Position numbers and translations under genes: made by a program
Shown: positions 15,340 to 34,489 of the stretch, piece by piece
How the letters are laid out: every line of letters starts with the position of its first letter
Position numbering within the stretch: position 1 is the first letter of the stretch
The notes under the pieces: generated by a model
Databases searched by the model: none
What the model was told of the DNA's origin: nothing
What the model saw: the letters and a program-made list of their open reading frames with translations, nothing else
DNA from: Fodinibius salsisoli
Lineage (GTDB): Bacteria > Bacteroidota > Rhodothermia > Balneolales > Balneolaceae
DNA: 64,000 nt
Assembly: GCF_026229185.1 (NCBI RefSeq)
Contig: NZ_JAGGJA010000002.1
Span: 248,001-312,000, forward strand
Direction: 5' to 3'

Positions 15340-16155
15340 CTATTCACTGCAGCTAACATTTTCCAGTGTTTCATCCCAACAGGCTTTGTTCCCTTCATTT
15401 ACATCGGGAGTAATCAAATAGCCCGCACGGGTATCTACATTCCACTGGGTAATCGTAGTATCAGCAGTTCCGGCGTTAAGGTACTCAACCGTTTTTAAGG
15501 GTGCTTCAGTTGTATACTGGATGTAACTTCCCGGTGTCCCGTTTCCTGATATAATGTCTAATCTGATCTGGTTTGCCTCCTGCTCGTCAAATTCCCAGCT
15601 CAACTCTGCCAGTGGCGTATTATTACTCTCTGTACTGCTCAAGCTGTTAATAGTCCAGTTCCCCCTCTTGCCGTCTTGCCTCACCGTTCCGCTAAGAAAC
15701 AGTTTGTCATTCAAGGTGCTTGATTCGGAGCTCACGAAAAGGGACCAGCTCACAGTATTTGCCGTAATTCGCTGGCCAATGAGCCGAGCTTGATACTGGA
15801 TGCTATCCGCCGAGGTTTGATAACTCCACTCCCACTGCTGGTCGTCATTGAGTTCCGCCACCGTATCTTCAGCAGCTGATAAAAGGGCTCTTGGTTTTGC
15901 TAAATTGCTTTCAACAATTCCTTCCAAAGAACCTGCGCGATATACAGCCTGGATGTAATAGTCAATAGCTTGCGTTGTTGCTTTTTGAGGCTCTTCTGCT
16001 CCCAGGAGTGTCGAAAATTCAATTTCCAGGGACGAAATGGGGGGCAAAGCCGGGGGCTCTTGATTGACCGATGAAGCAGGATCATCGGAACAGGCGTTAA
16101 ATAATAAAACACTCAACAAAATAACTATGGGAAGTATTGAAAACCGCTTAAACAT
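15340..16155 (-). CDS. Lipoprotein of unknown function, paralogue B of three
   Basis: 271 residues, with the lipobox VLLFNAC followed by SDDPASS and the linker PPALPPISS. It shares QWEWSYQTSAD, GNWTINSL, LSWEFDE, W-N-V-D-T-R-A-G-Y and the C-terminal KACWDETLENVSCSE with the copy at 16396-17214, and more weakly with 11411-12214. The N-terminal part also shares an Ala/Leu-rich helix region (VESNLAKPRALL) with copy C. Probably surface- or periplasm-facing; function unknown. Confidence 0.82.
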   Translation of the reverse strand: MFKRFSILPIVILLSVLLFNACSDDPASSVNQEPPALPPISSLEIEFSTLLGAEEPQKATTQAIDYYIQAVYRAGSLEGIVESNLAKPRALLSAAEDTVAELNDDQQWEWSYQTSADSIQYQARLIGQRITANTVSWSLFVSSESSTLNDKLFLSGTVRQDGKRGNWTINSLSSTESNNTPLAELSWEFDEQEANQIRLDIISGNGTPGSYIQYTTEAPLKTVEYLNAGTADTTITQWNVDTRAGYLITPDVNEGNKACWDETLENVSCSE

Positions 16156-16395
16156 ATAGACTATTGGAGGATTAAATTAATTTATGAAAAAGAGCAATGG
16201 TAAAGGTTCGATATTAATACACCCAAAACTTTTTACCAGATGCCTTTGCAAAACTCGTCGGGTCCCGAATTCTCGGTATCGTCCGGAGAATGGTCTTAGG
16301 CACTATAAACTCGCCCGACCACACAATTAGTGTTCGGACGAGGAAGTATTTCATAGGCCCTGCCATGCATTAGAACTGATAAACAGGAGCTTATA

Positions 16396-17214
16396 TTATT
16401 CGGAGCAGGGGATATCTTCAAAATTCTCGTCCCAGCAAGCTTTATCTCCATTATTATAACCCGGAGCAGTAATAGAGCCGGCTTTGGTTTCAACATCCCA
16501 CTCTAATGTTGTTTCCTGATTTTTGCCGGCATCATAGTAAACGGCCGTCTTCGTAGTGCCCTCGAAAGTATAATCAATGTAATCACCCAAGTTATCATTA
16601 CGATCGGATACGACCTCAAGACGCAGACTTAAATCATTTTCGGCATTGGCAGCCCAAGTAATTTGAGAGACTTTTTCTCCTTTACCTTCGGCGTCTAGCA
16701 GGCTGTAATACGACCAACTACCCGTTGTGCCCTGAGCCATAGAAACACCACTGAAGAACAGCTCGTCTTCCAATCCTAAGTTGGAATTGGTGACATAAAA
16801 ATTCCAACTGGCATCTCCGGCCTGGTCGCGGGCGGCCGTCAGGCGTACACCATAGTCATTTTCTTCTTTTGACGTATTATATGCCCATTCCCATTCTCCA
16901 TTTTCATTATATTGAACATCCGATTCTGAGGCAGCCTTAAGAAAAGCCCGGGGAAGGGCCAGATTTATATCCACAATAGCTTTTAGCAGCCCCGCACGCA
17001 CTACAGCCTGACCAAAGTTATTCTTTGCTTGAACTGCAGTATTTGGGGCCTTGCTTTGAGCATCAAAATTTGAAAAATCCATGGCCATTGAAGTTTCCGG
17101 TGGTACGGCTGGTGGATTCCCTCCCGTAGAATTTGTAGAACTATCACTGCATGAGCTGATAACCATCATTACTGCCAAAAGAGCGATTGAAAAAGTAGCA
17201 AATTGTCTTAGCAT
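16396..17214 (-). CDS. Lipoprotein of unknown function, paralogue C of three
   Basis: 272 residues, lipobox MMVISSC, linker with PPAVPPETS. The conserved landmarks are VDINLALPRAFL, EWEWAYNTS, GSWSYYSL, a W-D-V-E-T-K-A-G-S motif and KACWDENFEDIPCSE at the end. It is the closest relative of 15340-16155, 240 bp away. Tandem duplication is the simplest explanation for the B/C pair. Confidence 0.82.
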   Translation of the reverse strand: MLRQFATFSIALLAVMMVISSCSDSSTNSTGGNPPAVPPETSMAMDFSNFDAQSKAPNTAVQAKNNFGQAVVRAGLLKAIVDINLALPRAFLKAASESDVQYNENGEWEWAYNTSKEENDYGVRLTAARDQAGDASWNFYVTNSNLGLEDELFFSGVSMAQGTTGSWSYYSLLDAEGKGEKVSQITWAANAENDLSLRLEVVSDRNDNLGDYIDYTFEGTTKTAVYYDAGKNQETTLEWDVETKAGSITAPGYNNGDKACWDENFEDIPCSE

Positions 17215-23889: not shown

Positions 23890-24825
23890 TTAGCCAAGTA
23901 ACCATTCAGCTATAGATGAAAAAAATATAGATCCGCTATGCTTAAGCATAAGGGTGACAATGAGAAATGATACAAATGCCAGCGAAGTTCCATATTTCAT
24001 ATACATCACGCTCTGGTAATCACTTTGGCTACGTTTAATCAAGGCTTTCAACCTATTATTGATTACCATTCCAACCACACTTCCAGTGATTCCAAATAAT
24101 AATCCCAGCTTCAGATGCTGTAAACAGATTCCCAGGGTAGTCAATAATACGCCGCTAAAGAAGGCCATTCCAAAGAAATAAAGGACAATGGTTTTACCGT
24201 ATGTAATGGCAAATGTACGGTCGCCACGCTTTTGATCTTCTTCCTGCTGGTATAGCTGGGATACGGGGTATAAGCTGAGTAAAATAAGGGTAACGCCAGC
24301 AGCAACAATCCAGATAAAGAAACCAAGCGGTTCATGTCCCGCTGCAATATAGCCCATTAAGACCGTATTAAAACCTGTACTGAAACCAATGGCAATTAAG
24401 CTCTTAAACGGGCGTCCTTTCCAGCGGGTCCATGGACTTGAATACAGCCAAAAAAATAGCATACTCAGGGCGTACAGGGCCACAAAGAATGTTCCCATCG
24501 GAAGTGCCACAAGCAGCCCTATCATTTGGAGAAATAGGGAAGCCAGCCACATCCAGGGATGCATCTTGGGAGGATTTTTTAACCCGCCAATCGGTCCCTC
24601 ATCCCGATCCCAAAAGGAATTATAGGCTGTTGCGCCTCCAAACAGTAAGAGATGGATATTTAAAAACTGGACAATAAACCAGTTGGTATCGAAATCATCA
24701 CTCAACAGGCCACCCATTAAAAAAGCACCTGACAAGATAAAAAACTGGTAGTGAAGGCGTAGATGAAGCACAAAATGCCAAATCTGAACAAGCCAGGGAA
24801 CGTTCCGTTTGGTAATCTCAGCCAC
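23890..24825 (-). CDS. UbiA-family membrane prenyltransferase
   Basis: 311 residues with about eight to nine hydrophobic spans. The first polar motif, AYNSFWDRDEGPIGGLKNP, matches the N-x3-D-x-D-like prenyl-diphosphate/Mg site of UbiA enzymes. The second region YQQEEDQKRGDRTFA corresponds to the D-x2-x-D loop. It would transfer an isoprenoid chain to an aromatic or lipid acceptor in the membrane. The acceptor cannot be told and no quinone genes flank it. Confidence 0.82.
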   Translation of the reverse strand: MAEITKRNVPWLVQIWHFVLHLRLHYQFFILSGAFLMGGLLSDDFDTNWFIVQFLNIHLLLFGGATAYNSFWDRDEGPIGGLKNPPKMHPWMWLASLFLQMIGLLVALPMGTFFVALYALSMLFFWLYSSPWTRWKGRPFKSLIAIGFSTGFNTVLMGYIAAGHEPLGFFIWIVAAGVTLILLSLYPVSQLYQQEEDQKRGDRTFAITYGKTIVLYFFGMAFFSGVLLTTLGICLQHLKLGLLFGITGSVVGMVINNRLKALIKRSQSDYQSVMYMKYGTSLAFVSFLIVTLMLKHSGSIFFSSIAEWLLG

Positions 24826-24908
24826 GCAAAATTATTAATGAAAGATTAAGTTTATCATACCGATTTTAGACTTATCAATCCACCGAAAGTTTGGTATTTT
24901 AGGAAGCC

Positions 24909-25814
24909 ATGATTACGACTAACATTACCATACCAAGCTACATTTCCACAAAGCTCAGCGCTAAAGAGTGGAAACAAGAAAAAAATGAGCACGAGCGGCT
25001 AATAGCCAAACAGATTGATGATTATCTTGATCGCCGGAGTCAACAACAGAAAGATCCGGTGATGGATTTCCTTTTCGAATATTATGCTTTTCGTCCGGCC
25101 CATCTCAAGCGCTGGTCACCGGGCTTGGGAACGCTTTTGCAGGATGGCGGCAGCTACGACTGGCGGTTTGATGAAATGGAACCAATTGGTGAGGATTCTT
25201 TTTTGGACATAACCCACTTCCCTGATGATCGTATTTCGGCACTACAGTGGATTTTAACGGTACTCGAAAATTCGCTGCATCGAAAACCTTCATTCGGATG
25301 TTTTGGCATGCACGAATGGGCCATGGTCTATAAAGCAGACCGTATTCGTCATAATCACCTTTCGTTGCGCATGGAAATGGACGAGCTTGCCGAATTTGTG
25401 GAGTCACGTCCGCTGGTCTGTACCCATTTCGATGCTTTCCGCTTTTTTACCGATGAGGCCAAACCGTACAATAAGTTCGAGTTAAATCGGAATAACTTCC
25501 ATGAGATGGAACAACCCGGCTGCCTGCATACCAATATGGATTTATACAAATGGTCCTTCAAGATGTATCCCTGGATTTCCAGCAGTACTATTCGCCGAGC
25601 TTTTGAACTGGCCGTCCAAACAAGAGTAATGGATATGAAAGCCAGTCCCTATGATTTGCGAGAACAGGGCCTGGAACCCATCAGGATTGAGACCGAAGAA
25701 GGACGGCTTGAGTATGTAGAAAAACAGCGTGCCATCCACCAGAAGTCACAACCCATTCGCCAGCAATTAATTACAGAATACCAGGGCATATTACAGGCAC
25801 TGGATGAGCTATAA
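24909..25814 (+). CDS. Conserved protein often labelled 3-methyladenine DNA glycosylase
   Basis: 301 residues. I recognise the segment DFLFEYYAFRPAHLKRWSPG, which marks a conserved family present in many bacteria and usually named 3-methyladenine DNA glycosylase in annotation. No helix-hairpin-helix motif with catalytic Asp, typical of AlkA or Tag, is evident. Conserved-looking segments include GCFGMHEWAMVYK, RFFTDEAKPYNKFELNR, QPGCLHTNMDLYKW and VMDMKASPYDLREQG. The last are rich in His, Asp and Tyr, suggestive of an enzyme. The glycosylase name should be treated as unproven. The gene is divergent from UbiA. Confidence 0.6.
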   Translation: MITTNITIPSYISTKLSAKEWKQEKNEHERLIAKQIDDYLDRRSQQQKDPVMDFLFEYYAFRPAHLKRWSPGLGTLLQDGGSYDWRFDEMEPIGEDSFLDITHFPDDRISALQWILTVLENSLHRKPSFGCFGMHEWAMVYKADRIRHNHLSLRMEMDELAEFVESRPLVCTHFDAFRFFTDEAKPYNKFELNRNNFHEMEQPGCLHTNMDLYKWSFKMYPWISSSTIRRAFELAVQTRVMDMKASPYDLREQGLEPIRIETEEGRLEYVEKQRAIHQKSQPIRQQLITEYQGILQALDEL

Positions 25815-25934
25815 GATCTAATTCAAGTTCGAGCTTAATGCTATGCTCCAAGGGAGCTCCGTTCCCGCTTCTTGAAATTAAGAAAACTCGGGAGTAAAAC
25901 TCACTCAAATCTGATATGTACAATAAAAGCTTGC

Positions 25935-27125
25935 TTACTTTGGAAAAGAAACTTTCCCAAAATTTACTCTTTCCTTTTTTTCATTCAAACCAATTTGGAA
26001 TCCTTTTCCAGAAAGGGCCTCATTAGCCAAAACGGCAAAGCAAACGGCTTCTTTGGCATCCGGGTTAAAGTATTGCGCGCCAAAAGGAACAAATGCTGCT
26101 TTTGGCAACTGTTGCTTCAAACGATACATCAAAGCGTTATTATGAATCCCTCCCCCGCTCGTTAGTATTTCCATTTCATCCGAAGCATCCACTTTTTTAA
26201 TCGCCTCTGCAATTGTTTCTGCCGTTAATTCAACCAGGGTAGCTAACAGATCCTTATCCGATATTGCTTTGACATTGGCCTGGTCACGGGCCTGTTCTAC
26301 ATACTTCCAGTTAAATAACTCTGGGCCCGTTGTTTTCGGCATTGCTTGCTCAAAATAAGGATTGGCTTTTAACGCCTCCAGCAAGGCTTTATTCACAACT
26401 CCTTTTTGTGCTTCGGTTCCACCTTCATCAAACGGTTTATCCAGCAGGCGGCGAGCTGCGGCATCCAGCAGGGTATTCCCCGGCCCGGTGTCAGCACTTA
26501 TAGCATCCAAGGCAGAAGAAGCCGGTACATAGGTGAAATTGGCAATTCCTCCAATGTTGAGTAATATTCGATCTTTATGAGAATCACGGAACAAGAGCTG
26601 GTCAATTAAAGCCGCCATGGGTGCCCCTTCCCCTCCAGCAGCGGTATGTTTCTGACGAAAATCGCTGATCGTCAAAATGCCCGTTTTATGTGCTATATGA
26701 TCCCCGTCACCTATCTGTAAAGTTGCATGTGGAAACTCCGCCCGTTGATGTTTTGATTTCGGCGCATGATAGATCGTCTGGCCGTGGCTGGCTATACAGT
26801 CAACTTCAGAAGGATTGATGCGCCATCCTTCCAGTGTATCCAAAATGATCTCAGCCGTAAAATGTCCCAGGTAGGTGTGCATCAGGCAGACATCTTCCAA
26901 GCTGCACCGCGGCACAGAGATAACCTTCTGTAATAGGTCCTTCAGCTTCTCAGAATAGGCGACGGTTTCAAATTCCAACAAAGAAATTTCCGTTTCTTTA
27001 CCCTTTCCGGTCAACTGGCACAGTACCAGATCGAGTCCATCCATAGAGGTGCCCGACATCAATCCAAGTATAATTTTCTTTTTCTTTTGAGCAGCTTGGG
27101 CAAGCAGGGAAATTTGATTATTCAT
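25935..27125 (-). CDS. anmK: Anhydro-N-acetylmuramic acid kinase
   Basis: 396 residues, close to the family length. The signature GLMSGTSMDGLDLVLCQL (about 22-39) is the AnmK N-terminal phosphate-binding motif. IASHGQTIYHAP, LQIGDGDHIA, RILLNIGGIANFTYV and SADTGPGN are ASKHA-type active-site motifs, with LTSGGGIHN near the C-terminus. The enzyme phosphorylates anhydroMurNAc and opens the anhydro ring to MurNAc-6-P in peptidoglycan recycling. It is divergently arranged with the small gene at 27206. Confidence 0.95.
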   Translation of the reverse strand: MNNQISLLAQAAQKKKKIILGLMSGTSMDGLDLVLCQLTGKGKETEISLLEFETVAYSEKLKDLLQKVISVPRCSLEDVCLMHTYLGHFTAEIILDTLEGWRINPSEVDCIASHGQTIYHAPKSKHQRAEFPHATLQIGDGDHIAHKTGILTISDFRQKHTAAGGEGAPMAALIDQLLFRDSHKDRILLNIGGIANFTYVPASSALDAISADTGPGNTLLDAAARRLLDKPFDEGGTEAQKGVVNKALLEALKANPYFEQAMPKTTGPELFNWKYVEQARDQANVKAISDKDLLATLVELTAETIAEAIKKVDASDEMEILTSGGGIHNNALMYRLKQQLPKAAFVPFGAQYFNPDAKEAVCFAVLANEALSGKGFQIGLNEKKERVNFGKVSFPK

Positions 27126-27205
27126 ACATTGATTGACTTATCAGGATTATGTATTCTGGAACAGAAAATAACAGGAAGATTCACCTAACACGCAATTGTT
27201 TTATC

Positions 27206-27457
27206 ATGGATGAATTGAATGACACCGATTATGAAGCATATGAACAAGATATCGAACTATTGGTCGATACCCTTCGCAAGTGTTTCGATGCCCCTAAAGC
27301 CCGATACAACGTTATAGGTCACCAGAATACCCTTTTTATTGAAATTGAAGGACTGGATGAGCTAAGCAATGAAGAAATTTCGGAAGTTGCTGAACCCGTT
27401 CTTGAAGAATTGGATATGGATTTTGACGAAATATCCCTCCTGCCTCTTAAAAAATGA
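27206..27457 (+). CDS. Small acidic protein of unknown function
   Basis: 83 residues from the ATG at 27206 (MDELNDTDYEAYEQDIEL). An ATG at 27149 would add 19 basic residues unlike the rest and overlaps the anmK promoter region. It is strongly acidic, with a predicted helix-strand-helix pattern (LVDTLRKCFD, FIEIEGLD, EVAEPVLEELDMDFD). No family recognised. It lies 62 bp before the threonine synthase gene, same strand. Confidence 0.62.
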   Translation: MDELNDTDYEAYEQDIELLVDTLRKCFDAPKARYNVIGHQNTLFIEIEGLDELSNEEISEVAEPVLEELDMDFDEISLLPLKK

Positions 27458-27519
27458 TATCCTGCAGTAAGTAAACTATCTTTAAAAAGTATCTCTTTTA
27501 GCACCCTAAAGTCTAATCT

Positions 27520-29223
27520 ATGCCCACTGCAACCACCGCTTATCAGCTCAAATGCGTAGCCAACGGTCATCTGAATACTGCCCGGGAAACCACCACCTAT
27601 TGTACCCAATGTGGCAGCGTCTTGCGGGTTCATTATGATGAACCTTCTGCTGACCTTCAATACCCACTGGAATCGATTGTTCCGGATCCGTTGAAAACTC
27701 ATCCTATTGCCCTTGAGCAGCTCAATCGTCTTTCAGAAACGTACCATGCGGAGCTGTGGGCTAAACTGGAGTTTCAGCACCCTACGGGCTGTTTCAAAGA
27801 CCGCGGTAGTTATATTGAAGTTCAAAAAGCGATGGAATTAGGCGCTGATGCTATCTGCCTGGCATCCACAGGTAATATGGCGGCCTCCGTTGCAGCATAC
27901 GCATGCTATTTCAATATTCCGTGCTTTGTTTTTGTCCCTGAAAAAACGACAGAAGCAAAGCTCGCCCAGGCCACTATTTTCGACGCCAATATAATTCGTA
28001 TCAAAGGCTCATTTAGTACCTGCGAACAGCTGTGCCGAGAATTTGCCAAATCTGGCAATTATTATCTTGCCGGCGATTTTGTATTCCGGGAAGAAGGCCA
28101 GAAATCATTCTCCTATGAACTGCTGGAACAGAACGGGGCCGATGCTGACTACGTGTTTATTCCCATCGGTTGCGGCACAAATTTCAGCGCTATCTTCAAG
28201 GGGTTCAAGGAAATGAAAGCAGCTGGCTTAATTGACCAAATTCCAAAGCTGATTGCTATCCAGCCGGACCAAAGCTCCCCGGTAGTAGAAGGTATTTTCA
28301 AAAAGAAAAAAATTGTCAAGCAGCAGGTACACACCATGGCCAGCTCCGTGGCCGTGCCCGATCCGGTTGATTTCTATAAAGTGCTGGAAGGCATTAATGA
28401 ATCTGATGGTATGGCTATGACCGTTACGGAAGATGACATTTTAGATGCCCTAAAAGAGCTGGCTGTTGTAGAAGGACATTTTGTGGAACCCGCAGGTGCT
28501 CTCCCCCTTGCTGCTTTTAAAAAGCGGCGAAAGAAATTTAAAGATAAAAAATGCGTGTTTGTCGCAACCGGCTCTGGCTTTAAGGATACCGGAGTGGTCA
28601 CCAAGCATTCGCTCAATTCGCCCGTGCTGTCTGCTGACCTGGATAAAGTGATTAACTACATTCATTCCGGATTCATTGAAATGCAGAAAAAATCCTGGGG
28701 TAAATCGCGTGATACTTTCATGGCAAACCTCAAAATGGATGAACAACATGAACAGCTCTATAACGATTATATTTCCAAGATCAACCGGAAAGGAAAGACG
28801 TTAAGCAATAACGAAATTGAAGTGCTGCAGTCACTCATTTTTGATGAAGACGTGGATTTGGATTACCCGGTAGAAGTGCTTGACTATGAACTGACTATGC
28901 GCAAACATGGCTTGGTGCATGCGGCTGTTAAGCTCGACCTGGAAGGCAAAGAAGTTATTTCGGAAGCCAAGGGAGTGGGACCTATAGATGCTATTCTTAC
29001 GGCCATTCGCACAGAAACCGACAATGTTTTTCCTCTCCAGGTGAAAAACCATGAGGTGGATATTCTTAGTCCTGATACTGATTCCCTGGTAATGGTCACC
29101 CTTACGCTTGCCAACAGCGAACAGCAGTGGGTCTCAAAAGGAGCCTCACCCGACACCCTAGAAGCCGTTATCCAGGCATTCACCAAAGGACTGGCGATTG
29201 CGATGAAACCTGATGAAGACTAA
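27520..29223 (+). CDS. Threonine synthase fused to a LeuA-type allosteric domain
   Basis: 567 residues, well above a usual threonine synthase of this class (about 400). Residues 1-45 hold a zinc-ribbon-like C12, C28, C31. The PLP-enzyme core has K93 in HPTGCFKDRG, ASTGNMAASVAAYA and IPIGCGTNFSA. After ATGSGFKDTGVV (about 350) comes a helical linker, and from about 445 a domain with HGLVHAAVKLDL, EAKGVGPIDAILTAI and a G-A-S-P-D-T-L-E-A-V end. This matches the regulatory domain of alpha-isopropylmalate synthase, which binds branched-chain amino acids. It would convert phosphohomoserine to threonine under feedback control (inference). Confidence 0.85.
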   Translation: MPTATTAYQLKCVANGHLNTARETTTYCTQCGSVLRVHYDEPSADLQYPLESIVPDPLKTHPIALEQLNRLSETYHAELWAKLEFQHPTGCFKDRGSYIEVQKAMELGADAICLASTGNMAASVAAYACYFNIPCFVFVPEKTTEAKLAQATIFDANIIRIKGSFSTCEQLCREFAKSGNYYLAGDFVFREEGQKSFSYELLEQNGADADYVFIPIGCGTNFSAIFKGFKEMKAAGLIDQIPKLIAIQPDQSSPVVEGIFKKKKIVKQQVHTMASSVAVPDPVDFYKVLEGINESDGMAMTVTEDDILDALKELAVVEGHFVEPAGALPLAAFKKRRKKFKDKKCVFVATGSGFKDTGVVTKHSLNSPVLSADLDKVINYIHSGFIEMQKKSWGKSRDTFMANLKMDEQHEQLYNDYISKINRKGKTLSNNEIEVLQSLIFDEDVDLDYPVEVLDYELTMRKHGLVHAAVKLDLEGKEVISEAKGVGPIDAILTAIRTETDNVFPLQVKNHEVDILSPDTDSLVMVTLTLANSEQQWVSKGASPDTLEAVIQAFTKGLAIAMKPDED

Positions 29224-29230
29224 AATTAAT

Positions 29231-29830
29231 TTATACCAAAAGCGAGTGGTCGACCTGCTCCCTGATGTCACTCAGTGCGAACCCCATATGGTTTTCCACC
29301 GTTTTGCGAGTAATTCCCAAGACCTCTGCTATCTCTTTATAACTAAGCCCATGCTTTCGGTGTAAAATGAATACCGACCGTCGGCGATCAGGCATCTCAG
29401 AGACAATCTCCCAAATTTGATCAATTAAAAGTTGCTCCCTGTGTGTATCACTATTTCGTACAATCGACAAATGGCTTACTTCCTTTTTGGAAAAAGCAGT
29501 GCGTATATTTTCGCGATGCTGACGTCGGTCAATATAATTCAGGGTTTCGTTCCGGACTGACTGAAATAGATATGCTTTTACGGAGCTATGAATATGCCAC
29601 TCCTCTCTTTTCTTCCACAATGTGCAAAATACATCCTGTACAATATCCTGGGCACGCTCTTTTGACTTTATCATCTGAGCTGAAAATCCCCGCAGGTCAT
29701 AATAATACTTTAAAAACAGTCGTTTAAATGCCTTCTCATCGCCTTGTTGGACCTCTTCGGCAAGATGCTGATCAGAATTACTTATTTTTTCCTGAACGTT
29801 TCTCATAAAAAGTGCTGAAACTCTTTTCAA
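29231..29830 (-). CDS. RNA polymerase ECF sigma-70 factor, orphan
   Basis: 199 residues from 29830; an alternative ATG at 29806 (MRNVQEK) is equally plausible. Region 2 has FKRLFLKYYYDLRGFSAQMI and KERAQDIVQDVFCTLWKK; region 4 has MPDRRRSVFILHRKHGLSYKEIAEVLGITRKTVENHM. The pattern is of the Bacteroidetes expansion ECF family, normally next to a FecR-type anti-sigma factor. None is present here: the neighbours are threonine synthase (convergent, 7 bp) and aspartate kinase (divergent). Confidence 0.9.
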   Translation of the reverse strand: MKRVSALFMRNVQEKISNSDQHLAEEVQQGDEKAFKRLFLKYYYDLRGFSAQMIKSKERAQDIVQDVFCTLWKKREEWHIHSSVKAYLFQSVRNETLNYIDRRQHRENIRTAFSKKEVSHLSIVRNSDTHREQLLIDQIWEIVSEMPDRRRSVFILHRKHGLSYKEIAEVLGITRKTVENHMGFALSDIREQVDHSLLV

Positions 29831-29961
29831 AACTATTCATAGTAACCACTTTTGTGGCCATACTTTCATACAATACTTAAATACCGACTAAAATAATAAC
29901 AAAAGCATTAATAACTAACTATTTTAATGCCATTCGATTAATATTTTTAAGAAATAAACCT

Positions 29962-31311
29962 ATGACTATTTTAAAATTCGGTGGCACCTCGATGGGTAAT
30001 GAGAATACATGGCGCCAGGTGCTACAAATTATTACCCGCTACGAACATCCCTTTATTATTGTTTCAGCCACTTCTGATACAACCCGGCAACTTATTAAAA
30101 CTGCCAAACTTGCTCTGGCTGATCCAGAAAAGGCCTATGAGCATGCATCGAAAATAGAACAAAGGCATCAGAAGCTGATCACAAATTTTTTGGCCAATGT
30201 TACTATAACACATCACAGTATAAGAAAAAAATGCCAAGAATGGATTAAGAAACAAAATCAACAGCTGCATAAACTTATCGCCCAAATTGATGCAGAAAAA
30301 GAAATAAATCCTGCAACGATGGATGCTATAGCTTCCATCGGCGAGCAACTCTCTTCTTATCTTTTTGCTCAATGCGGCCAAGCTTTGGGTCTGCCTACCC
30401 AGTGGATCAATGCTGCGGATGTAATACGTACCAATTCAGATTTTGGGCAGGCCACACCGGATCTGACCTATATCACCAATAACCTTTCGGCCATACACCA
30501 ACTCTCTGCCGATACCATTCCAGTAATGGGGGGCTTTTATGGTCAGGACAACCATGGAAATATTACGACCCTTGGTTTTGAAGGATCAGACTACTCTGCA
30601 AGCCTGATGGGGGCCGCACTCTCTGCTGATGCTATTGAAATTTGGACGGATGTCAGCGGTATTTATACCTGTGATCCACGTGTTATTGATGAGGCTTATC
30701 CCATTCCAGAGCTTAGCTTTCAGGAAGCTACCGAATTAGCCTACTTCGGTGCTAAGGTACTGCATCCTTCCACAACCAAGCCTGCTGCCCTGAAAGATAT
30801 CCCAATTAAAGTAAAAAACATTTTTGATCCCGATGCACCCGGAACACACATCAGTACGAAGGTAACATCCAACGGAACCGCCAAAGCGATGACCTTTAAA
30901 GAAGAAGCGCTTATCTGTACCGTTAATTCTAGCCATACTGTGATGGGATATGAATTTTTGGCTAACGTCTTTAAGACGCTGCAATCACTCCATTTACCGG
31001 TCGATGTAGTAACAACGACCGAAGCTTCTGTATCTATTGCGATACCTCCCTGTTCCCAGTTGGAAACTCTTGTTGAACAACTACAGTCGGCAGGCCGTAT
31101 TGATCTCCAGGAAAACCAAGCTATTATTAGTATAGTTGGTTGTAATCCTCAACAATCGACTTTGCTGATAAAAGAAACATTGGATGGGATTGGTGAAGAT
31201 ATTATCAATATGCTTTCGTTTAGCCATGCCAAACGAAATCTAAATGTAGTGCTCAACAGTGATCGATTACTGACTGCCGTTAAAGCGATACATCGCAAGA
31301 TATTTACTTGA
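29962..31311 (+). CDS. lysC: Aspartate kinase, monofunctional
   Basis: 449 residues. The kinase domain opens with TILKFGGTSMGNENTW, has the DAIASIGEQLSSYLFA segment, GFEGSDYSASLMGAAL and WTDVSGIYTCDPRVIDEA. Two C-terminal ACT-like segments (about 310-449) include TVNSSHTVMGYEFLAN and ISIVGCNPQQ, so it is probably feedback regulated by lysine or threonine. It catalyses the first step of the aspartate pathway; asd (48057) and threonine synthase (27520) are nearby but not in one operon. Symbol by family type; the effector class is not certain. Confidence 0.9.
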   Translation: MTILKFGGTSMGNENTWRQVLQIITRYEHPFIIVSATSDTTRQLIKTAKLALADPEKAYEHASKIEQRHQKLITNFLANVTITHHSIRKKCQEWIKKQNQQLHKLIAQIDAEKEINPATMDAIASIGEQLSSYLFAQCGQALGLPTQWINAADVIRTNSDFGQATPDLTYITNNLSAIHQLSADTIPVMGGFYGQDNHGNITTLGFEGSDYSASLMGAALSADAIEIWTDVSGIYTCDPRVIDEAYPIPELSFQEATELAYFGAKVLHPSTTKPAALKDIPIKVKNIFDPDAPGTHISTKVTSNGTAKAMTFKEEALICTVNSSHTVMGYEFLANVFKTLQSLHLPVDVVTTTEASVSIAIPPCSQLETLVEQLQSAGRIDLQENQAIISIVGCNPQQSTLLIKETLDGIGEDIINMLSFSHAKRNLNVVLNSDRLLTAVKAIHRKIFT

Positions 31312-31337
31312 TTCTACCATATCTAGATATCCAAGAT

Positions 31338-32411
31338 CTATTGAGAATCTGAAGGTGCCTGTTGTTCCGAAGCACTGACGATGCCGAGTCGCTTGGCACG
31401 CTCTACCCATTTTTTGCGAGCCATCTTCTGCATATCTTCAATAGTATCTACCTCATCGATGATTTCCATCCCCAGTAAGGTTTCCACCAGGTCTTCCATC
31501 GTCACAACCCCTGCGAAGCCACCGTATTCATCCACCGCCATAGCGATATGTTCCTGCTTTTTCATCAGGCGCTCAAAAAAGTCCTGCAGCGGAGTCATTT
31601 CAGGCACAATCAAAATATCACGCTTAAACTCCTTTAATTTTGTTTCCGTTTCATTACGCGCCATCATCAAGAGCAGGTCATTCTTTAGCACATAGCCTGT
31701 CACATCGTCTCTTGCTTCTCCATAGACGGGTAAACGGGAAAAATGAAGCTGCTCCACATGATCACTGACTTCCCCAACCGGAAGGTTTTCCTGGAACCCC
31801 ACTACAACCGTGCGCGGGGTCATAATATCTTTGACGCGCAACGAGCTGAAGCGAATGAGATTCTTAAAAATACGTGATTCTTCCTCTTCAAATACGCCTT
31901 CTTCCACTCCCAAATCGGCCAGGGCTCCAAATTCTTCTCTGCTAAAGCTTGGTTCATTCTCGCCCGAAATCATCCGTGTAATGGCCTGAGACATCAACAC
32001 AAAAGGATACAATAACACCATTAGAATGTGGAGGGTCTTGGCGGTAAAGGGTGCCAAGCGTCTCCAATAAGTAGCACCGATGGTTTTGGGAATAATCTCA
32101 GACAACACTAAAATAAGAAAAGTCAGCACGGCCGAAGTTATCGCTACATAAGCATCTCCAAAAATGATTTGGGCCTGTGCGCCAACACCGGCTGCACCTA
32201 CTGTATGTGCGATTGTATTTAAACTCAGTATAGCCGAAAGCGGACGATCAATATCTTCTTTATAATTGCGGAGCAGTTCACCCGTTTTACTGCCCTTGCG
32301 ATCCATAATCGCAATATAAGAATGACTGACCGAAAGCAGCACCGCTTCCAGCATTGAGCATAAAAATGATACCCCGATTGCCAGTGATAAATAAAATATG
32401 AGTAAAGACAT
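31338..32411 (-). CDS. CNNM/CorC-type membrane protein with CBS pair
   Basis: 357 residues from the ATG at 32411 (MSLLIFYLSLAIGV); an upstream GTG-type extension to 32477 adds unlikely residues. The DUF21 membrane domain covers 1-175 with three to four spans and LSEIIPKTIGATYW. A CBS pair follows: IMTPRTVVVGF through SRLPVYGE, and IAMAVDEYGGFAGVVTMEDLVETLLG. The usual C-terminal CorC_HlyC domain is missing: after the CBS pair only a short helix remains. Related proteins take part in magnesium efflux or tolerance; transport here is inferred. Confidence 0.87.
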   Translation of the reverse strand: MSLLIFYLSLAIGVSFLCSMLEAVLLSVSHSYIAIMDRKGSKTGELLRNYKEDIDRPLSAILSLNTIAHTVGAAGVGAQAQIIFGDAYVAITSAVLTFLILVLSEIIPKTIGATYWRRLAPFTAKTLHILMVLLYPFVLMSQAITRMISGENEPSFSREEFGALADLGVEEGVFEEEESRIFKNLIRFSSLRVKDIMTPRTVVVGFQENLPVGEVSDHVEQLHFSRLPVYGEARDDVTGYVLKNDLLLMMARNETETKLKEFKRDILIVPEMTPLQDFFERLMKKQEHIAMAVDEYGGFAGVVTMEDLVETLLGMEIIDEVDTIEDMQKMARKKWVERAKRLGIVSASEQQAPSDSQ

Positions 32412-32533
32412 AGGCCAAAAATAGAACAATTGTATCTTTTTTAAAAAATGCTCTGCACTAAAAGTTATAAAAACCATTTAGCTCTACCTGCTATGTTGAT
32501 TATATTAAGGGTTCTAACCAAAAACACATTTCA

Positions 32534-34489
32534 TTGCTTTCATTAGATAATATTTCTCTGACATACGGCCAGAAGACGTTACTGAATGACGTTAGTGTTC
32601 TTATTAATCCCGGTGAGCGTATCGGGCTGGTAGGCCCCAATGGCGCTGGTAAATCAACACTACTCAAAATTATAGCAGGCGAAACACTCCCCGATTCGGG
32701 TAATGTTAATACCTCCAAGACAGCCACCATCGGTTATCTGCCACAGGATGGTGTAGATCCAGACCCAGGCTGCACGGTTTATGAAGAGGTGGAGCGCGCG
32801 TTTAAAGAACTCCAGAAGCTGGAGCACAAAGTTCAGAAAGCCCAGCAGAAAGTGGCCAACCTGGATGAGGAATCCAGTAAGTATACCCAAGCGATGGAAC
32901 AACTGGGAATATTGCAAAGCAAACTCGAACAGTCTGGGGCATATACGCTGCAATCAGATATTGAAAAAGTTTTAATGGGACTCGGATTCACGCCCGATGA
33001 TTTTAACCGATCTACTACTGAATTTAGCGGTGGATGGCTGATGCGAATTGCCCTGGCCAAGCTTTTGCTGAAAAAACCTACCTACCTGCTGCTTGATGAG
33101 CCGACCAACCACCTGGATATTGAATCGCTGCGCTGGATTGAACAATTTCTTCATAAGTACGAAGGCACGGTCATCATTGTATCACACGACAAAGCCTTCC
33201 TGAATGAAATTACCAGCCGTACGCTTGCTTTGGATCGTGGAGATCTGCTGGATTATTCGGGCAACTATTCCTACTACAAGGAAAAAGATAAAGAGCGGCA
33301 GGAGCATCTGCGGAAGGCTTACAAAAATCAGCAGAAAGAGATTAAAGAGATCCAGGAGTTTATCGATCGCTTTCGGTATAAAGCCAGCAAGGCAAAACAA
33401 GTGCAAAGCCGCATCAAGAAGCTGGAAAAGATGGATATAATTGAGCTGGATGAGCATGAAGAAGAAATTTACTTTGAATTTCCTCCGCCGGAACGCAGTG
33501 GGGCTATCGTAATGCAGCTGAACAACATCCAGAAGCAATATGACGACAACGTCGTTTTTGAGGACCTCTCCTGTTCTATCGATCGCGGAGATAAAATTGC
33601 CGTTTTAGGTCCTAATGGTGCGGGTAAATCAACGATGATTCGGATGATGGGCGGCCTGGAAGAACCGACCAGCGGCAGCCGTGAGCCGGGACATAATGTA
33701 ACAACTTCTTACTTTGCCCAGCACCAGGCCGATGAGCTTGATCTCGATAAAACCGTCTTTGAGATCATGCGCGATGCCGCGCCTAAAGCTGACGAAACGA
33801 GGCTGCGCACCATATTAGGCTGTTTTCTATTTCAGGGCGATGACGTGTTCAAAAAAGTAGCGGTATTGTCTGGTGGAGAAAAAAGCCGCCTTGCCCTGGC
33901 ACGGATGCTTCTGATGCCGGCCAACTTCCTGATTTTTGATGAGCCGACCAACCACCTGGATATGAAGTCCAAGGATATTCTGCAGCAGGCCCTGAATCAG
34001 TATGAAGGGACCTTTATGATTGTATCGCACGATCGCGATTTCCTGGATCCTATTGTAGACAAAGTGCTGGAAGTGCGCCCTAATGAAACGAACACTTTTT
34101 TGGGCAATGTATCCTATTACCTGCAGAAAGTGGAAGAACGCGAAGAGCTTGCTGGCCAAACGCAACAAAATGGGCAGCAAGAAGACAGCGGACTTTCCCG
34201 AAAGGAGGAACGTCGCCTGGAAGCCCAAAAACGCCAGCAAAAATACCAGGCCCTCAAGCCCCTCAAGAAAAAGATTGATCCCCTCGAAGATAAGATTGAA
34301 ACTATGGAAAGCCGAAAGGCTGAAATTGAAGAACGAATGGCTCAACCGGACTTTTATGATGATGAAGAGCAAGTAAAAGAAATTTCCATGGAGTACGATA
34401 AGCTAAAAGCCGGACTGGTTGAAGTGTATGCCGAATGGGAAGAGCTGGCTATGGAAATGAGTGAGATTGAAGAACAATTTGAAGCCTAA
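32534..34489 (+). CDS. ABC-F family ATPase (ribosome-associated type)
   Basis: 651 residues with two ATP-binding cassettes and no membrane span. Walker A GPNGAGKST occurs twice (about 34 and 359), with ABC signatures FSGGWLMRIALAK and LSGGEKSRLALAR and Walker B LLLDEPTNHLD and LIFDEPTNHLD. A long charged linker (about 235-310) and a C-terminal coiled coil (565-650) resemble Uup/EttA-type factors that act on the ribosome. No ATG fits: the start codon is TTG at 32534. It ends 12 bp before the SDR gene. Confidence 0.9.
   Translation: MLSLDNISLTYGQKTLLNDVSVLINPGERIGLVGPNGAGKSTLLKIIAGETLPDSGNVNTSKTATIGYLPQDGVDPDPGCTVYEEVERAFKELQKLEHKVQKAQQKVANLDEESSKYTQAMEQLGILQSKLEQSGAYTLQSDIEKVLMGLGFTPDDFNRSTTEFSGGWLMRIALAKLLLKKPTYLLLDEPTNHLDIESLRWIEQFLHKYEGTVIIVSHDKAFLNEITSRTLALDRGDLLDYSGNYSYYKEKDKERQEHLRKAYKNQQKEIKEIQEFIDRFRYKASKAKQVQSRIKKLEKMDIIELDEHEEEIYFEFPPPERSGAIVMQLNNIQKQYDDNVVFEDLSCSIDRGDKIAVLGPNGAGKSTMIRMMGGLEEPTSGSREPGHNVTTSYFAQHQADELDLDKTVFEIMRDAAPKADETRLRTILGCFLFQGDDVFKKVAVLSGGEKSRLALARMLLMPANFLIFDEPTNHLDMKSKDILQQALNQYEGTFMIVSHDRDFLDPIVDKVLEVRPNETNTFLGNVSYYLQKVEEREELAGQTQQNGQQEDSGLSRKEERRLEAQKRQQKYQALKPLKKKIDPLEDKIETMESRKAEIEERMAQPDFYDDEEQVKEISMEYDKLKAGLVEVYAEWEELAMEMSEIEEQFEA

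Follow-up and report, generated by a model that had tools for sequence, protein, structure and literature searches.

Introduction

To our knowledge, the sensor domain of LeuA and CimA has so far been known only on acyl-transferring synthases of the HMGL type. Here we describe a protein of Fodinibius salsisoli in which this domain follows a PLP-dependent enzyme resembling threonine synthase (ThrC). The gene lies in a 64,000-nucleotide stretch of contig NZ_JAGGJA010000002.1, which is called the window below. Literature searches for a PALP-LeuA_dimer fusion or for the domain name returned no paper describing such a fusion, the one match being a paper on methylthioalkylmalate synthase.

Two solved regulators are closest to the C-terminal part of the protein. 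The regulatory domain of LiCMS from Leptospira interrogans (3f6g/3f6h) shares its fold, and the equivalents of LiCMS Asp431, Ile458, Val468, Pro493, and Asp494 are mostly kept in the fusion, whereas the fusion has I, L, M, or V in place of Y430, H in place of Y454, and in most cases T in place of Q495; moreover, the LiCMS domain sits on an HMGL-type synthase and that of the fusion on a PLP enzyme. LeuA of Mycobacterium tuberculosis (1sr9/3fig) shares with the fusion the regulatory domain and the last part of the linker (Z of about 13), but the fusion is devoid of the HMGL-like domain.

As regards the enzymatic part, the threonine synthases of Bacillus subtilis (6cgq), Thermus (1uim), and Arabidopsis (1e5x/2c2b) have in common with the fusion the PLP fold, the lysine of the FKDRG motif, and the TGxGxK motif, at 25–35% identity in structural alignments. 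The threonine ammonia-lyase IlvA belongs to the same PLP superfamily and follows the same plan, a PALP core with a C-terminal sensor of branched-chain amino acids; however, its sensor is of the PF00585/ACT type, whereas that of the fusion is PF08502, and the motifs of the fusion core are ThrC-like. CapA2 (9k3c) can be aligned by fold with residues 3–387 of the fusion, that is, into the linker, but its 430-residue chain is aligned to the end without reaching the LeuA part, and the identity is 19%. Finally, a Microcystis ThrC resembles the fusion in being a ThrC-like protein apart from both canonical ThrC and IlvA; it differs in having kept threonine synthase activity, which follows Michaelis-Menten kinetics with O-phosphohomoserine as the substrate, and the accessible part of the report mentions no LeuA domain (PMC12172450).

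Domain architecture

The sequence-only reading of this locus had proposed a threonine synthase extended by about 200 residues, of which the last 115 resembled the allosteric domain of LeuA, and had named beforehand a profile search of the C-terminal region as one test that could refute the proposal. This search finds PF08502 over 123 residues (positions 436–558 of the protein, 7–127 of the 131 profile positions; 63.4 bits against a cut-off of 24.9, E = 2.6e-17), within the 216 residues that follow the PALP core (Table 1). In contrast to LeuA and CimA of the same genome, which contain the HMGL-like domain PF00682, the fusion has no match to this domain in the Pfam scan at E <= 1, nor one to PF00585 or ACT.

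Table 1. Coordinates of the fusion gene, its parts, and associated genes (window positions, or locus and position for the last row).
Feature	Position	Strand	Remarks
Small conserved gene, 83 aa, putative partner	27206..27457	+	62 nt upstream of the fusion, same strand
Fusion protein, ThrC-like PLP enzyme with LeuA_dimer domain	27520..29223	+	567 aa, ATG to stop, intact ORF; conserved in relatives
N-terminal Cys-containing stretch, residues 1–45	27520..27654	+	alignment of relatives
PLP fold-type II catalytic core, PF00291 PALP, residues 63–351	27706..28572	+	E 1.3e-63
M120, replaces threonine-synthase Thr (T88, Thermus numbering)	27877..27879	+	alignments
G185-D186, replace Asn-Ser of the threonine-synthase NSxNxxR motif	28072..28077	+	alignments
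Helical linker, residues 352–435, last part LeuA-linker-like	28573..28824	+	LeuA model matches
LeuA_dimer regulatory domain, PF08502, residues 436–558	28825..29193	+	profile and predicted fold
I489-D490, at LiCMS Y430-D431 positions of the ligand pocket (roles presumed)	28984..28989	+	alignment
H511, replaces pocket Tyr/Phe (LiCMS Y454; role presumed)	29050..29052	+	alignment
Unfused ThrC-like genes beside a Rid-family-like gene	L157:6307-8000, L208:39-1780, L209:1-1572, L210:1-1194		

The main alignment (A1) comprises the window protein and 26 relatives out of 34 loci found; two loci with the window's own gene (L002, L003), four near copies (L004, L011, L012, L019), and two short C-terminal fragments (L034, L035) were left out, and one row (L033, from G025) is cut at its start. 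Two further alignments, A2 and A3, have 17 and 15 rows. All 27 members of A1 match both PF00291 and PF08502 at E <= 0.001.

The AlphaFold model of the whole fusion, built from a 27-row alignment, has mean pLDDT of 82.9 and pTM of 0.66, and therefore the relative placement of the domains is not secure. The tail modeled alone has pLDDT of 80.6, and all 12 of its Foldseek matches at E <= 0.001 are chains of M. tuberculosis LeuA or of the isoleucine-bound regulatory domain of LiCMS. In VIA comparisons, the tail model aligns with 3f6h at Z of 15.9 (119 residues, 2.2 A) and with 3fig at Z of 13.2, the best unrelated fold scoring 8.4. A chance match or a profile artifact is rejected, since all 27 members match the profile and the predicted fold is in line with it, and the identity of the tail as a LeuA_dimer domain is virtually certain.

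LeuA profile models start to match the fusion at residues 401–407, and the leucine-bound LeuA structure is aligned from residue 65 of the tail model, i.e., residue 429 of the protein. Hence, the domain was apparently acquired together with the last part of the LeuA linker. At the opposite end of the protein, C12, C28, and C31 are kept in all 26 rows that cover the N-terminus and C15 in 12 of them; the zinc ribbon PF08271 is matched by only one of the 27 members.

Occurrence, origin, and selection

The fusion was found in 31 of 58 searched genomes (own genome included), three of which (G025, G046, and G049) contain it as a piece at a contig end. The carriers belong to one order, Balneolales; among relatives retrieved by sequence search, those with a name are a protein of Fodinibius sediminis, at 85%, and one from a Gracilimonas MAG, at 67%, and several genera of the same family, as well as two families of the order, are without the fusion. 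In an even sample of 394 genomes of the phylum, again including our own, the tail profile exceeds 280 bits in 35 genomes, all from one order, the next best match being a LeuA-type protein at 58 bits. A search with the core profile, limited to E <= 1e-62, again retrieves 35 genomes, every frame being 565–614 aa long; no unfused orthologue was found in the sample at this threshold, beyond which weaker homologues lie. Among 247 plasmid records with a tblastn match, none covers 80% of the query.

In the tree of regulatory domains, the 27 fusion domains form one clade (support 100/98) apart from 26 CimA, 13 LeuA, and six other domains, although the long branches make sister relations unsafe. This rejects the idea that the fusion recently took up its domain from a CimA or LeuA encoded in the same genomes. 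One origin of the fusion fits the data; the fusion is old and fixed in a single clade of the sampled genomes.

Reading frames are intact in all 13 fusion genes tested. Below, "canonical ThrC" denotes a TIGR00260 match above 230 bits, and "thrB" a TIGR00191 match above its cut-off. One pair of genomes, G005 and G008, is devoid of thrB, canonical thrC, ilvC, and leuA at the search cut-offs; it is the only one, among four pairs where both genomes are without thrB and canonical thrC, in which dS could be measured (about 1.3). The dN/dS ratio is 0.011 for the whole gene, 0.014 for the core, and 0.008 for the regulatory part. Nine other pairs were compared: four yielded a ratio of 0.009–0.020 for the whole gene or a part of it, four are synonymously saturated throughout, and one (G007 versus G000) gave a value only for the regulatory part, 0.064. 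The fusion in G005 and G008 is under very strong purifying selection, its sensor half being as constrained as the enzyme half. The ratio of about 0.01 is thus found in bacteria that apparently cannot synthesize threonine, leucine, or isoleucine.

Genomic context

In 28 of 30 loci, the fusion has a small gene upstream of it (24 identified by a motif and four more by tblastn). Neither approach gave a match in the G035 locus; at locus L026, the sequence before the fusion extends for just 214 nt, and L004 and L023 seem to come from a single genome. The small gene ends 5–6 nt from the fusion in two loci and reaches it in one. Its 102-codon ORF has no Pfam match, and the 83-residue product is a possible small partner of the fusion.

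Genes of the aspartate family are frequent neighbors. By sequence reading, dapD, dapA, and dapB occur near the fusion in 11, 11, and 10 of 18 loci, respectively, and aspartate-kinase-containing genes in seven of these 18. Canonical thrC is the convergent neighbor of the fusion in six genomes of the same genus (G001, G002, G003, G006, G009, and G010) and lies about 3 kb away in G011, while in several Fodinibius-type genomes the fusion is located beside thrC-thrB-thrA. At the own locus, the genes that follow the fusion encode a sigma factor of the ECF type and a monofunctional aspartate kinase. An Rfam scan of window positions 24000–32600 gave no match, and a scan for promoters and terminators (7 and 4 sites versus shuffle means of 4.0 and 2.2) led nowhere. 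Elsewhere in the window, two adjacent similar lipoprotein-like ORFs of 271 and 272 aa (15340–17214, minus strand) look by eye like a tandem duplication.

Comparison of the core with threonine synthases

The closest solved structures to the core are threonine synthases (VIA Z of 33.9–40.5), threonine deaminases reaching 33.1 at best, and alignment with ThrC identifies the Schiff-base lysine as K93 of FKDRG. The fusion passes the TIGR00260 (thrC) cut-off marginally, with 171.9 bits against 167.1; complete fusions from G004, G016, G027, and G034 fall below it. Together with the kept equivalents of R160, K61, and T317 (Thermus numbering) and with thrC-thrB-thrA, dap, or aspartate kinase genes adjoining many fusion loci, these observations speak for a genuine threonine synthase that would supplement or replace canonical ThrC, its LeuA domain restraining the aspartate family at high levels of isoleucine or leucine.

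The details of the active site argue against this explanation. We compared 15 fusions with 16 threonine synthases, of which five have solved structures and 11 are canonical ThrC proteins of the order (those with available loci, out of 41 found in 58 genomes). Seven Thermus positions, namely T88, N154, S155, N157, R160, N188, and N191, are identical in all 16 threonine synthases; in all 15 fusions they are occupied by M, G, D, a gap, R, C/A, and N, respectively. Hence, five of the invariant residues (T88, N154, S155, N157, and N188) are replaced in every fusion, whereas the equivalents of R160, N191, the PLP lysine (K61), and T317 are kept. In the wider set, the position of M120 is Met in all 26 fusions covering the region and Thr in 16/16 threonine synthases, and G185 and D186 are Gly and Asp in 27/27 fusions versus Asn and Ser in 16/16. 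In structures of ThrC, these positions presumably lie close to the substrate or the cofactor; the argument relies on their conservation. In agreement with it, the 16 threonine synthases and 15 fusions fall on opposite sides of a branch with 98/97 support (midpoint root, partial reference sequences).

Gene content also argues against a threonine synthase. The own genome has ordinary thrA-thrB-thrC genes on another contig (L143, with the dap genes), and its canonical ThrC scores 290.6 bits with TIGR00260, compared to 173 for the fusion. Both thrB and canonical ThrC are already present in 22 of the 31 fusion genomes. In the remaining nine (G005, G007, G008, G013, G014, G017, G021, G024, and G031), eight of which are at least 90% complete, both are below the cut-offs and the fusion is kept. 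Eight of these nine have weaker GHMP-kinase matches under the TIGR00191 cut-off, and a homoserine kinase of another family may operate there; the alternative kinase thrB_alt (TIGR00938) was found in none of 14 genomes tested, all nine included. One homoserine dehydrogenase is kept in eight of the nine, a profile search finding none in G031, and we infer that in those eight it serves methionine.

This point is weakened by three of the nine genomes (G017, G021, and G024), which carry another ThrC-like protein of approximately 400–420 aa. That of G017 is a "threonine synthase" by NCBIfam PRK08197 (518 bits versus 303), and the NSxN residues are missing in all four rows of the PRK08197 type, this one included. 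In a PRK08197-type "threonine synthase" at L138:6921-8123 (518 bits), the ThrC residues give way to STLKEPYR and GGGTG; this protein is possibly another misnamed ThrC relative.

Thus, of the initial assignment as threonine synthase, the family resemblance and the marginal profile match stand, but the replaced invariant residues, the position outside the ThrC clade, and the separate canonical thrA-thrB-thrC speak against the function. The fusion is probably not an O-phosphohomoserine threonine synthase, and a threonine synthase under branched-chain control is unlikely.

Other reactions known in the superfamily were also considered. The deaminase signature, a Ser at the PLP ring nitrogen and a GGGG loop, is absent from the fusion, which counts against a deaminase-type lyase. 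Cysteate synthase is rejected as its identity, given a TIGR03844 score of 43 bits against a cut-off of 324.9; papers on the cysteate synthase of sulfonolipid synthesis, such as PMC11211663, provided only background. More generally, the fusion might be an amino-acid-regulated beta- or gamma-replacement enzyme acting on another substrate, for instance in a reaction resembling that of cysteate synthase or on a substrate whose amine is held by Asp186. A single non-ThrC structure, CapA2 of Alistipes finegoldii, stands between the threonine synthases in the first 12 VIA rows (Z of 35.2, 377 residues aligned, up to residue 387 of the fusion), an Asp is invariant at the position of ThrC Ser155, and selection is strong in the genome pair without thr or ilv pathway markers. 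On the other hand, the low TIGR03844 score and the 19% identity to CapA2 count against such an enzyme, and no gene of a corresponding pathway was recognized beside the fusion; we consider it rather unlikely.

The putative ligand pocket of the regulatory domain

Pocket positions were read from the alignment with LiCMS, the numbering being consistent with the chain range 390–516. We take the LiCMS residues Y430, D431, L451, Y454, I458, V468, P493, and Q495 to be the ligand contacts; they correspond in the fusion to I489, D490, V508, H511, I515, V524, P544, and T546, respectively. Literature searches on the roles of the contact residues gave no paper on them among the matches listed. Among the 27 fusion domains, the kept positions are D490 (26/27), V524 (27/27), and Ile or Val at 515 (26/27), along with the GxGP motif, whereas H511 (27/27) and T546 (24/27) are changed relative to LeuA and CimA. 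Elsewhere, the position of H511 is Tyr in 26/26 CimA, Tyr or Phe in 12/13 LeuA, and Tyr in 6/6 other domains, i.e., aromatic in 44 of 45. With the putative anchoring aspartate and the aliphatic wall kept and the aromatic residue turned into histidine, we read the pocket as a candidate amino-acid site of altered specificity.

Another possibility is that the domain binds no amino acid and is only an oligomerization module, or acts on another protein such as the domain-less LeuA of this order. The unusual H511 and T546 and a LeuA without PF08502 in the own genome are compatible with it. However, D490, V524, and the GxGP motif are kept, the domain in the measured pair is under as strong selection as the core, 11 of the 31 fusion genomes have no LeuA match beyond the fusion itself, and in two families (f3 and f4) LeuA is domain-less although no fusion occurs among the genomes searched. 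We regard a non-sensing domain as improbable and consider the tail likely to be an amino-acid-binding regulator. The initial suggestion of a branched-chain amino acid sensor holds insofar as the domain is a genuine one of the LeuA/CimA type with a partly preserved pocket; leucine or isoleucine as the ligand is a guess, because an invariant His replaces the Tyr/Phe of the LeuA and CimA pocket.

Branched-chain amino acid pathways and relatives of the core

The functional rationale offered at the outset, that threonine is the precursor of isoleucine, is weakened in this genome. It encodes a citramalate synthase of 530 aa with a LeuA_dimer domain of its own, and hence 2-oxobutyrate can be obtained without threonine; no PF00585-type threonine deaminase was found in the genome, where short TdcB-like dehydratases were recognized by sequence reading. 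Threonine therefore need not feed isoleucine, and, as far as gene content shows, the fusion is not needed for isoleucine in F. salsisoli. LeuA of this genome (L036:16873-18063, 396 aa) has no PF08502 and adjoins the CimA that has one. Lack of the regulatory domain is common for LeuA in the order: in 36 of the 37 genomes with LeuA (own genome included), the matches extend no further than position 389 of the 494 in the model, and only in G035 does LeuA (503 aa) match to the end of the model.

For the survey, CimA was defined as a PF08502-bearing frame other than the fusion or LeuA of G035. IlvA or CimA is already present in 18 of the 31 fusion genomes, and only two of the 20 carriers with ilvC (G014 and G035) are without both PF00585-type IlvA and CimA; replacement of IlvA is therefore rejected as a general role of the fusion. 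Two genomes, G019 (78% complete) and G044 (88%), have ilvC with neither IlvA nor CimA, and no fusion. In G032 (locus L150), ilvA and one more ORF lie between ilvC and an acetyltransferase gene, and its sister G014 (L148) has neither; the gene names in this pair are from sequence reading, that of ilvA also from a profile. G014 by reading possesses ilvB, ilvN, ilvC, ilvD, and leuABCD, with no cimA found and no ilvA beside ilvC. At the other extreme, eight of the 31 fusion genomes, all from the nine without thrB and canonical thrC, are devoid of thrB, canonical thrC, ilvC, and leuA alike. A literature search on auxotrophy in Balneolaceae gave no paper naming the family among the matches listed.

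Within the order, the unfused ThrC-like proteins nearest to the fusion all come from one genus and are 35–37% identical to the fusion core, and the STGN-Met motif is found in all three that cover the region. In 4/4 loci of this genus, the gene adjoins one of the Rid family type (enamine/imine deaminase; Table 1). Rid proteins clear the enamine and imine products of dehydratases. The one Rid-like protein scanned scores 103.1, just below the cut-off of 106.25, and the Rid-linked ThrC-like proteins are not orthologues of the fusion, their sister position having 82/69 support in one tree and not being resolved in another. A biochemical precedent comes from cyanobacteria, where an atypical ThrC apart from the canonical ones is reported to have threonine deaminase activity in vitro, with isoleucine and alanine as inhibitors (PMC12172450).

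Proposed function

Given the gene content of G014 and G035, the Rid-adjacent relatives, and the cyanobacterial precedent, a deaminase-type lyase is our first choice for the activity, tentative as this assignment is. We thus favor an amino-acid-gated ThrC-like lyase of the threonine/serine deaminase type over a threonine synthase, with a probability of about 0.4. According to this model, a PLP enzyme of the ThrC superfamily would have lost the site common to threonine synthases and have its activity gated by an amino acid bound in the C-terminal domain of the LeuA/CimA type. The chemistry would be an alpha,beta-elimination, as in threonine or serine ammonia-lyases, yielding a 2-oxo acid and ammonia. 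The LeuA-type domain may dimerize and bind a small aliphatic amino acid, as LiCMS and LeuA do; ligand binding would alter catalysis via the linker, and the cell could burn or spare the substrate depending on the supply of branched-chain amino acids. The sequence-only reading was therefore half right, being partly supported: a real sensor of the branched-chain type is attached to an enzyme that probably is not a threonine synthase.

In a broader scenario, plausible enough to entertain but short of an even chance, the sensor was recruited once in the ancestor of Fodinibius and Gracilimonas, where it would gate a PLP enzyme of a new kind, derived from ThrC but distinct from both threonine synthases and classical deaminases, and the conserved 83-residue protein would be its partner. 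The enzyme would matter enough to these bacteria to explain its very low dN/dS. An imported branched-chain or similar amino acid would then be the switch for an unrecognized reaction.

A regulatory module long studied on two biosynthetic enzymes is found here fixed on an unrelated enzyme class, and the fusion shows how amino-acid sensing can move between pathways. The data suggest that "threonine synthase" would be a misleading name for the family. The compactness of the enzyme allows for direct tests of its substrate and effector, and its persistence in genomes that lack the pathways expected to account for it hints at a reaction hitherto unrecognized.
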